Assembly: GCF_000188155.2 (NCBI RefSeq)
Contig: NZ_KE124774.1
Span: 3,860,934-3,924,933, forward strand
DNA: 64,000 bases
Origin: Methylocystis sp. ATCC 49242
Lineage (GTDB): Bacteria > Pseudomonadota > Alphaproteobacteria > Rhizobiales > Beijerinckiaceae
Direction of reading: 5' to 3'
Made by a program: the position numbers and the translations under genes. Positions 11,440 to 59,059 of the stretch are shown in pieces. The stretch's first letter is position 1. Each line of letters begins with the position of its first letter. The notes under the pieces were generated by a model that saw only the letters and a program-made list of their open reading frames with translations, was not told the DNA's origin and searched no databases.

Positions 11440-11640
11440 TGCAAAAGCGCGTATCTACCGACTTGCCCAAATCGCACGTGCCTGTGGTCGTGTGTCGGTC
11501 GGCGGGGATCCGGACAAGAGGCCGGTCAACCGTCGGAATAAAACCGGCAGCCGGAGGCGAACCGGCGAACTCCGCCCTCAACGGAGGATCGCGACTTAAA
11601 GCAACGACGGACCGGGCTTTTTTGGTCTCTGTCGGCCCTC
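11440..11640 (+). ncRNA. Candidate structured leader of ornithine decarboxylase (speF-type)
   Basis: The 750 bp between 11192 and 11941 hold no convincing gene. Within it, about 300-500 bases upstream of the ornithine decarboxylase start, is a stretch dense in complementary segments: repeated CCGG blocks in CCGGCAGCCGGAGGCGAACC, a hairpin ACTCCG-CCCTCAA-CGGAGG (about 11568-11587), and GGACCGGGC followed by six T residues (near 11605-11620). Alphaproteobacterial ornithine decarboxylase genes are known to carry the structured speF leader RNA, which this matches in position and length. Boundaries and class are inferred, not computed. The rest of the gap shows only short chance frames. Confidence 0.45.
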
Positions 11641-11941
11641 CAAAGGTCGACGCACCGAAGAGGCTTGTCTTTCTTGCCGGGCGTGCGGAAAGGGAACTTC
11701 CCCTTCCAATCGATGGCTGTTCGGATCGAAACGCATGCGCTGACGCGCGTGATTTTCGTCGTCTGACCGGCCTACGGCGCATCACCGGATCGTTTGCGCG
11801 CAAGCGTGACGCGGTCCTGGATTGCTGGCGCATCAGCGTTCGTCGCGTCTCCACCACGCGCGAACGAAGGACGTCGTGCATCCGCCGAAGCAACTGGTTC
11901 CTGGCGCGCCTCGCATCGCGCCCTTCGAAGGGGATGCCGCA

Positions 11942-58754: not shown

Positions 58755-59059
58755 GCGGGCGTGGCGAAACTGGTAGACGCAACGGACTTGAAGCAATTTG
58801 AGTGCTCCAGACGGGAAACCGAGGGAGTAGAACCGCTCAAAGTCGGGGAAACCTCCAAAAGTGGCGATCCCGAGCCAAGCCCGCCGGGCGGCGGGAAGGT
58901 GTAGAGACTAGACGGGCGGCGCCTAAGGCGTTTCACGCTAGGGCGAAGGTATAGTCCAGACCCCAAACCCGCGCGAGCGGGGCGGCGAAAGCCGTAGCGG
59001 GTACGAAAATCCGTAGGGCCGCAAGGCCTGTGCCGGTTCGATTCCGGCCGCCCGCACCA
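58755..59059 (+). tRNA. tRNA-Leu(UAA) gene with intron
   Basis: Exon 1 is 58755-58789 and exon 2 is 59006-59059, giving an 89-nt spliced tRNA with encoded CCA. Acceptor GCGGGCG pairs with CGCCCGC; D-stem GCG/CGC; anticodon arm ACGGA-CTTAAAA-TCCGT gives anticodon UAA; a long variable arm GGCC-GCAA-GGCC (class II, Leu); T-arm GCCGG-TTCGATT-CCGGC. All stems are perfect. Without removing the intron the anticodon loop cannot form. Confidence 0.95.
58790..59005 (+). ncRNA. Group I self-splicing intron in tRNA-Leu(UAA)
   Basis: The 216-nt insert lies between anticodon positions 34 and 35, the same point as in cyanobacterial and plastid tRNA-Leu(UAA). Helix P1 can be drawn as ACUUGAA-GCAA-UUUGAGU, putting the last exon U in a U-G pair; the intron ends with G (59005). 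Core elements are visible: GCGATCCCGAGCCAAGCC (Q-like, about 58864-58881), GAGACTAGACGGG with P7 5' strand GACTA (58906-58910), and AAGGTATAGTCC with P7 3' strand TAGTC (58952-58956). There is no endonuclease gene. Subclass IC3 is likely by comparison with known tRNA introns. Confidence 0.9.

Follow-up and report, generated by a model that had tools for sequence, protein, structure and literature searches.

A group I intron in the only tRNA-Leu(UAA) gene found in a Methylocystis genome, and its relatives on chromosomes, plasmids and phages

The tRNA-Leu(UAA) gene of Methylocystis sp. ATCC 49242 (58755-59059, with an encoded CCA) is split between the anticodon bases U34 and A35 by a group I intron of 216 nt (58790-59005), which raises the questions of whether the gene can supply the cell with its tRNA and from where the intron came. 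The positions refer to a stretch of 64,000 nt, here called the window, from a genome of 4.73 Mb that is rated 100% complete and has two PF02461 matches (methane/ammonia monooxygenase family). As judged from sequence comparison, this is almost certainly a functional and probably self-splicing intron in the only tRNA-Leu(UAA) of the methanotroph, and it belongs to a proteobacterial lineage of anticodon-loop introns and not to the cyanobacterial tRNA-Leu lineage.

Anatomy of the intron and the need for splicing

The elements on which a sequence-only reading of the window had based its description, namely the coordinates, the split between U34 and A35, the length of 216 nt, P1, P7 and the terminal G, are all present in the sequence (Table 1). 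ARAGORN, when introns were allowed, reported tRNA-Leu(taa) i(36,216); once joined, the exons adopt the fold of a class II tRNA-Leu(UAA). The same structure places the intron, as had been claimed, at the insertion site known from cyanobacteria. In P1, the guide GAGU is paired with the exon ACUU, with a U34.G pair at the 5' splice site, and UUU could, by eye, form a candidate P10 with AAA of the 3' exon. L2 and L9 are GAAA, and P8 contains a near 11-nt receptor (CCUAAGG...UAGGG, which by eye we take to resemble the 11-nt tetraloop receptor); these features, which bear on a possible assignment to subgroup IC3, were read by eye. The intron is too short to hold an endonuclease gene.

Table 1. Coordinates of the gene, the intron and its helices in the window, and of further intron loci mentioned in the text
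Feature	Position	Strand	Basis
5' exon, tRNA-Leu(UAA), ending at U34	58755..58789	+	sequence; ARAGORN intron mode
Group I intron, 216 nt, terminal G at 59005	58790..59005	+	RF00028 match 58785-58973; ARAGORN intron mode; R1 141.4 bits (R1 built from this intron and its relatives)
3' exon, tRNA-Leu(UAA), A35 first, encoded CCA	59006..59059	+	sequence; ARAGORN intron mode
P1: exon ACUU + GAA, GCAA loop, UUUGAGU	58786..58803	+	sequence
P3 5' strand CCGCUC	58833..58838	+	covariation
P3 3' strand GGGCGG	58914..58919	+	covariation
P7 5' strand GACUA, guanosine-binding helix	58906..58910	+	covariation; function as established for group I introns
P7 3' strand UAGUC	58952..58956	+	covariation
P8 hairpin	58920..58945	+	proximal four pairs by covariation count
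P9 + P9a, GAAA loop on P9a	58968..58994	+	sequence; RNAalifold
tRNA-Thr(GGU) intron loci	L043, L045, L048, L049, L053, L055, L056, L059, L062		
Plasmid copies	L224:3999-4315 (Klebsiella p6Inc); L221:3999-4312 (E. coli pB4-L)		

The assignment to group I, also made in the earlier reading, was borne out by a match to the full RF00028 model (1-253 of 253; 47.3 bits, E 4.1e-11, with 421 bases given) at a lowered threshold and by covariation in the core. The match lies 2.7 bits below the gathering score of 50, and therefore the default Rfam scan at gathering scores returned nothing at the intron locus. Default ARAGORN gave a spurious 'tRNA-???' on the 3' part. (Elsewhere in the window, at 11465-11765, an ar45 sRNA is followed by a speF leader, both above the Rfam cut-offs.) Minimum-energy folding was weak (z -1.8 and -1.5); the structural support consists of the model match and the covariation.

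For the covariation analysis, 297 genomes from the order were scanned with Rfam, which yielded 36 group I matches in 35 genomes. Thirty-four were delimited (set A1), while the two matches of G168 (L033 and L090), which are without tRNA context, were left out. The core alignment comprised 31 introns, after omission of two aberrant rows (G029 and G257) and one near-copy (G146); because RNAalifold gave no P3, the core pairs were written by hand and then counted. Across these related introns, 99.5% of 930 cells were paired, both partners were changed in 10 of the 30 core pairs, and covariation scored 0.193, whereas slid partners scored 0.012-0.046. Of five covariation measures, four were reached by none of 500 shuffles; the fifth, which counts further pair types, was reached by 54 of them. 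Covariation was observed in P3, P5, P6a, P7 and P8, and P4 and P6 were paired in every row and invariant. Both helices of the pseudoknot covary: C-G is replaced by U-A in P3 of 11 of the 31 introns, and A-U by G-C in P7 of 4 of the 31.

The guide sequences follow the host gene. Among the 34 introns of set A1, UGAGU or UGGAGU was found in 20 of 21 Leu introns, UGGGC in all four Arg introns and UGCCU in all nine Thr introns; thus, the guide varies with the host tRNA, as splicing requires. GAGT likewise lies in the initial 40 nt in 60 of the 61 Leu introns found by the model. The terminal G in 61 of these 61 is no evidence, because it was imposed by the script that delimited them. One tRNA-Leu intron (L036, in G029) deviates in its guide and has C instead of G at its 3' end before the exon; either a shifted splice site or a decayed gene is possible there.

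With these elements, splicing would take the course usual for group I introns, in which P7 is the guanosine-binding helix. The transcript would form the P3-P8 core, including the P3/P7 pseudoknot, a guanosine bound by P7 would attack the splice site that follows U34, where P1 has its U.G pair, and the freed U34 would attack after the terminal G (59005). The exons would be joined to a tRNA-Leu(UAA) that serves as the sole reader of UUA.

That the tRNA depends on splicing, a further claim of the sequence-only reading, agrees with the tRNA complement. The tRNA model matched 54 places in the genome, one of which is the window gene, and no second tRNA-Leu(UAA) was found among the other 53. The leucine anticodons assigned by ARAGORN at those loci were CAA, GAG, UAG and CAG, but not UAA; ARAGORN made no call at four loci (L080, L082-L084), and a class II pattern with a UAA arm was absent from all loci. 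As the sole tRNA-Leu(UAA) found in a complete genome, the gene must be spliced if UUA is to be read. In 31 long, uncurated open reading frames of the window, which comprise 16,042 codons, UUA occurs 16 times, spread over eight of the frames.

Such rarity is what speaks for a broken tRNA with a retained insert, in a cell that manages without tRNA-Leu(UAA). We regard this as extremely improbable, since UUA is used nonetheless and no other UAA anticodon was found, since the catalytic core and the guide are conserved, and since the intron is kept in seven of the ten sampled genomes of the genus (R1 scan, the window's genome included). Moreover, the exons equal an uninterrupted gene: in two congeners without the intron, an uninterrupted tRNA-Leu(UAA) occupies the syntenic place, with identities of 100% over 89 nt (G475) and 99% (G400) and with upstream DNA about 78% identical to that of the window gene. 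In the third congener lacking the intron (G346), the tRNA-Leu(UAA) is 81% identical and the upstream DNA does not match. The single copy, the use of UUA and the uninterrupted alleles in congeners together make splicing of the window gene very likely.

Distribution and lineage of the Leu(UAA) introns

The sequence-only reading had seen in the intron an oddity that implied either transfer or a sparsely kept relic. Introns in tRNA-Leu(UAA) were found in 20 of the 35 genomes of the order that have a group I intron (297 scanned). The core model R1 was built from members of the order, which therefore match by construction. It matched 42 of the 199 family genomes, 49 of the 385 class genomes and 40 of the 398 phylum genomes. 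Leu(UAA) introns were present in 27, 18 and 17 of these genomes, respectively, where the count for the class includes the doubtful L130 of G622, with the guide absent from the first 40 nt. A pattern scan of named genomes yielded at least 119 stretches, of which 101 were verified as Leu(UAA) introns: at least 60 from Alphaproteobacteria, at least 31 from cyanobacteria, at least 3 from beta- and at least 2 from gammaproteobacteria, and at least 5 unplaced. By order, the verified records include at least 19 from Hyphomicrobiales, 13 from Caulobacterales, 11 from Rhodobacterales and 8 from Sphingomonadales (each a minimum), with hosts such as Bradyrhizobium lablabi, Reyranella soli, Paracoccus zeaxanthinifaciens, Sphingomonas yantingensis, Enterovirga aerilata, Caulobacter and Phenylobacterium. 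Eighteen of the stretches stand outside the verified set, among them L249, L251, L258, L262 and L279, which have core matches; a further five of the eighteen resemble uninterrupted genes (L278, L239, L308) or chance matches or fragments (L238, L250).

Because Leu(UAA) introns recur so widely, across four alphaproteobacterial orders, the notion of an oddity had to be abandoned, and the window intron is ordinary within its class. What stands of it is that presence varies among close relatives (seven of ten genomes) and that transfer within the Proteobacteria is possible; what falls is the rarity. The introns also separate from the cyanobacterial Leu(UAA) introns (see below). No paper on alphaproteobacterial Leu(UAA) introns was found in the open-access subset searched. 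The closest named relative is Methylocystis sp. JZJ.7 (L277), with 87.9% identity over 323 aligned positions of tRNA and intron and 69.8% over 1025 positions of upstream DNA.

Group I introns also occur in tRNA-Thr(GGU) genes, after position 36, in nine genomes from two genera of the order (Table 1). These counts were taken from the delimited order introns, as regular expressions missed most Thr rows. We know of no report of group I introns in tRNA-Thr hosts. In the family, ARAGORN indicated introns in tRNA-Thr(UGU) at three loci (L106, L169 and L171); its intron mode often misplaces splice sites and names, and the curated hosts are Leu, Arg and Thr.

The host tRNA and the insertion site of the window intron are identical to those of the cyanobacterial tRNA-Leu(UAA) introns, which favors a recent acquisition from a cyanobacterium, along with that well-known site. 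However, the window intron is 59-60% identical to the two cyanobacterial introns compared (59.5 and 59.0%), against 83.6-92.6% for five congeners and 82.1% for a Caulobacter. The median lengths, among the matches listed, differ as well (268 nt for cyanobacterial introns, n=29, versus 220.5 nt for alphaproteobacterial introns, n=60). In a core tree of 103 rows (138 columns; 55 of 99 inner branches unsupported, with a long-branch warning), the cyanobacterial Leu introns stand apart from all others whatever the host tRNA (SH-aLRT 99), and the window intron branches with proteobacterial Arg(CCU), Thr and Leu introns; the one exception is a gammaproteobacterial metagenome-assembled genome (MAG), L297, on the cyanobacterial side. 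The split recurred at SH-aLRT 100 in a tree built from 157 distinct, complete Leu introns (79 of its 154 inner forks unsupported), again with that MAG among the cyanobacterial introns and with a warning of long branches meeting at the split; this tree grouped the window intron with its own genus and a named Methylocystis.

Approximately unbiased (AU) tests were performed with 17 of the 103 rows, long-branch or odd, left out and with clades named after the first tree had been inspected. A clade of the own genus and the cyanobacteria was rejected (p 0.0057), and thereby the phylogeny that the earlier reading had proposed as a check separates the window intron from the cyanobacterial ones. A single clade of all Leu introns, the result most favorable to a cyanobacterial source, was not rejected (p 0.12), so that the window intron and the cyanobacterial ones may share a very old origin; neither was a clade of the proteobacterial Leu(UAA) introns plus the plasmid rows (p 0.092). 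Recent acquisition from a cyanobacterium thus appears very unlikely. L297 itself (Tatlockia sp., labelled Legionellaceae) contains a cyanobacterial-type tRNA-Leu(UAA) intron, by either transfer or a mis-binned contig.

The window intron instead has its place in a proteobacterial lineage whose tRNA introns are also found in tRNA-Arg(CCU) and tRNA-Thr(GGU), each with a guide that matches its exon. The Arg(CCU) introns of the sampled relatives share the anticodon-loop location, the core and the tree lineage with it, and the likeness to the alphaproteobacterial tRNA-Arg(CCU) introns of Agrobacterium and Bartonella bacilliformis (BbgpI) rests on these sampled introns. They differ in being inserted after position 36 with the guide GGGC, whereas the window intron follows position 34 of tRNA-Leu(UAA) with the guide GAGU. 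One publication identifies BbgpI as the tRNA-Arg(CCU) group I intron of Bartonella bacilliformis and reports self-splicing for an alphaproteobacterial tRNA-Arg(CCU) intron (PMC7717549). Two further systems were set beside the window intron by description alone. One is a tRNA-Leu(UAA) intron of a Pseudomonas isolate, reportedly described by Vepritskiy in 2002, which is gammaproteobacterial, unlike that of the window. The other is the Azoarcus tRNA-Ile(CAU) intron of subgroup IC3, which is likewise small and tRNA-borne but sits in a different tRNA.

Copies on phages, resistance plasmids and in E. coli

Relatives are also present on mobile elements. The record of a 595-kb phage (LR756511, L225:1368-2154) includes a tRNA-Leu(UAA) with a group I intron of 700 nt (core 59.7 bits) that holds an HNH endonuclease gene (PF01844 above the cut-off). 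In Gordonia phage Daredevil (L226:1879-2190), a tRNA-Lys(UUU) is split between positions 34 and 35 by a group I intron of 238 nt, in a region whose nine listed features are all CDS. From IMG/VR, at least 120 contigs were picked by a core motif, and all 80 of the 80 examined have core matches. Among these predicted viral contigs, L409 (281 kb) has three core matches in a span of 1.4 kb and L408 (315 kb) has two in 1.8 kb; both carry runs of intron-bearing tRNA genes. According to a 2014 review, all phage introns known at that time resided in protein-coding genes (PMC3984707).

With the window gene as query, a distant search of 72,556 plasmid records retrieved 1281. At a query cover of at least 80%, one tRNA-Leu(UAA) with its intron recurs in near-identical form in 1257 of the 72,556 records and in 624 of 5426 complete E. 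coli genomes. Table 1 gives two of the plasmid copies. Of three regions that were opened, two have tmrB and aac(3)-II adjoining the tRNA-intron copy; the third copy is adjoined by IS26 and a partial hypothetical gene, and the annotation of that stretch shows neither of the two resistance genes. No annotated feature lies under the match in any of the 20 E. coli rows (H26-H45) listed of the 624, and the single RefSeq region opened has no annotated tRNA at the copy. RNA genes are missing from the plasmid tables, which therefore cannot show whether a copy is annotated.

Over 305 bases, the E. coli and plasmid copy shares about 95% identity with the genes of Enterovirga aerilata (the same sequence as in G365), of G370 and of a Bradyrhizobiaceae MAG. 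AAC(3) matches were observed in nine of the 199 genomes of the family, one of them close (G455), and TmrB was sought in two of these nine. G455 (L478), as one of the 199, possesses an aac(3)-tmrB pair in the order and orientation of the plasmids, at 68% and 61% identity. An R1 core match was absent from G455, and neither AAC(3) nor TmrB was present in the stretches retrieved around the five closest tRNA copies examined. An alphaproteobacterial source of the aac(3)-II-tmrB segment is possible. No paper linking aac(3)-II to an intron-bearing tRNA was found in the open-access subset searched.

Related sequences are also carried by conjugative plasmids of Bradyrhizobium. That of Bradyrhizobium sp. 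ISRA443 has a tRNA-Leu(UAA) with an intron of 204 nt (L222:5001-5290) about 1 kb from trb genes, for which ARAGORN in intron mode gave no call, and the copy on pUSDA76 (L223) is without a recognisable 5' exon.

Inheritance, spread and implications

How did the intron come to be present in some genomes and absent from others? Without room for an endonuclease gene, the window intron is probably inherited passively, and it would be gained or lost by recombination across the tRNA locus. The scattered presence might mainly be a vertical remnant from an alphaproteobacterial ancestor, with many losses and no repeated gain by transfer. The trees are partly consistent with such a history: five of the six distinct introns of the own genus group with a named Methylocystis (SH-aLRT 92), and the taxon labels on the 157-intron tree are clustered (73 changes versus 112.9 in shuffles). 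Yet the minimum would be 14 changes (on a tree with 79 of 154 inner forks unsupported), relatives reside on conjugative plasmids and in phage tRNAs, and the intron of the congener G462 is placed apart, although a single clade of the own genus was not rejected (AU p 0.365). We hold predominantly vertical descent to be somewhat doubtful.

The mobile copies suggest a different history, to which we assign about an even chance. The introns would constitute a promiscuous proteobacterial lineage that passes from one anticodon loop to another, with a guide rewritten for each exon, and that phages and conjugative plasmids disperse; the HNH homing endonuclease gene, retained in at least one phage intron, would mostly have been lost from the chromosomal copies. 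A copy of an Enterovirga-like alphaproteobacterium would have entered the Enterobacterales together with aac(3)-II and tmrB, and about one ninth of complete E. coli genomes would carry it today.

The interest of the finding lies less in the window locus itself than in the size, the host range and the vehicles of the lineage, whose members are widespread, easily missed and present on phages and resistance plasmids. At the locus described here, a tRNA gene needed by the cell escapes default annotation, both by ARAGORN and at the Rfam gathering score. As guide and exon match in three host tRNAs, retargeting of group I introns can be tested directly. A related copy, the one adjoining aac(3)-II, may be a fingerprint of the origin of a common resistance segment. 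If an Enterovirga-like copy did travel in this way, the aac(3)-II/tmrB segment would have an alphaproteobacterial source, perhaps in the family to which this Methylocystis belongs.
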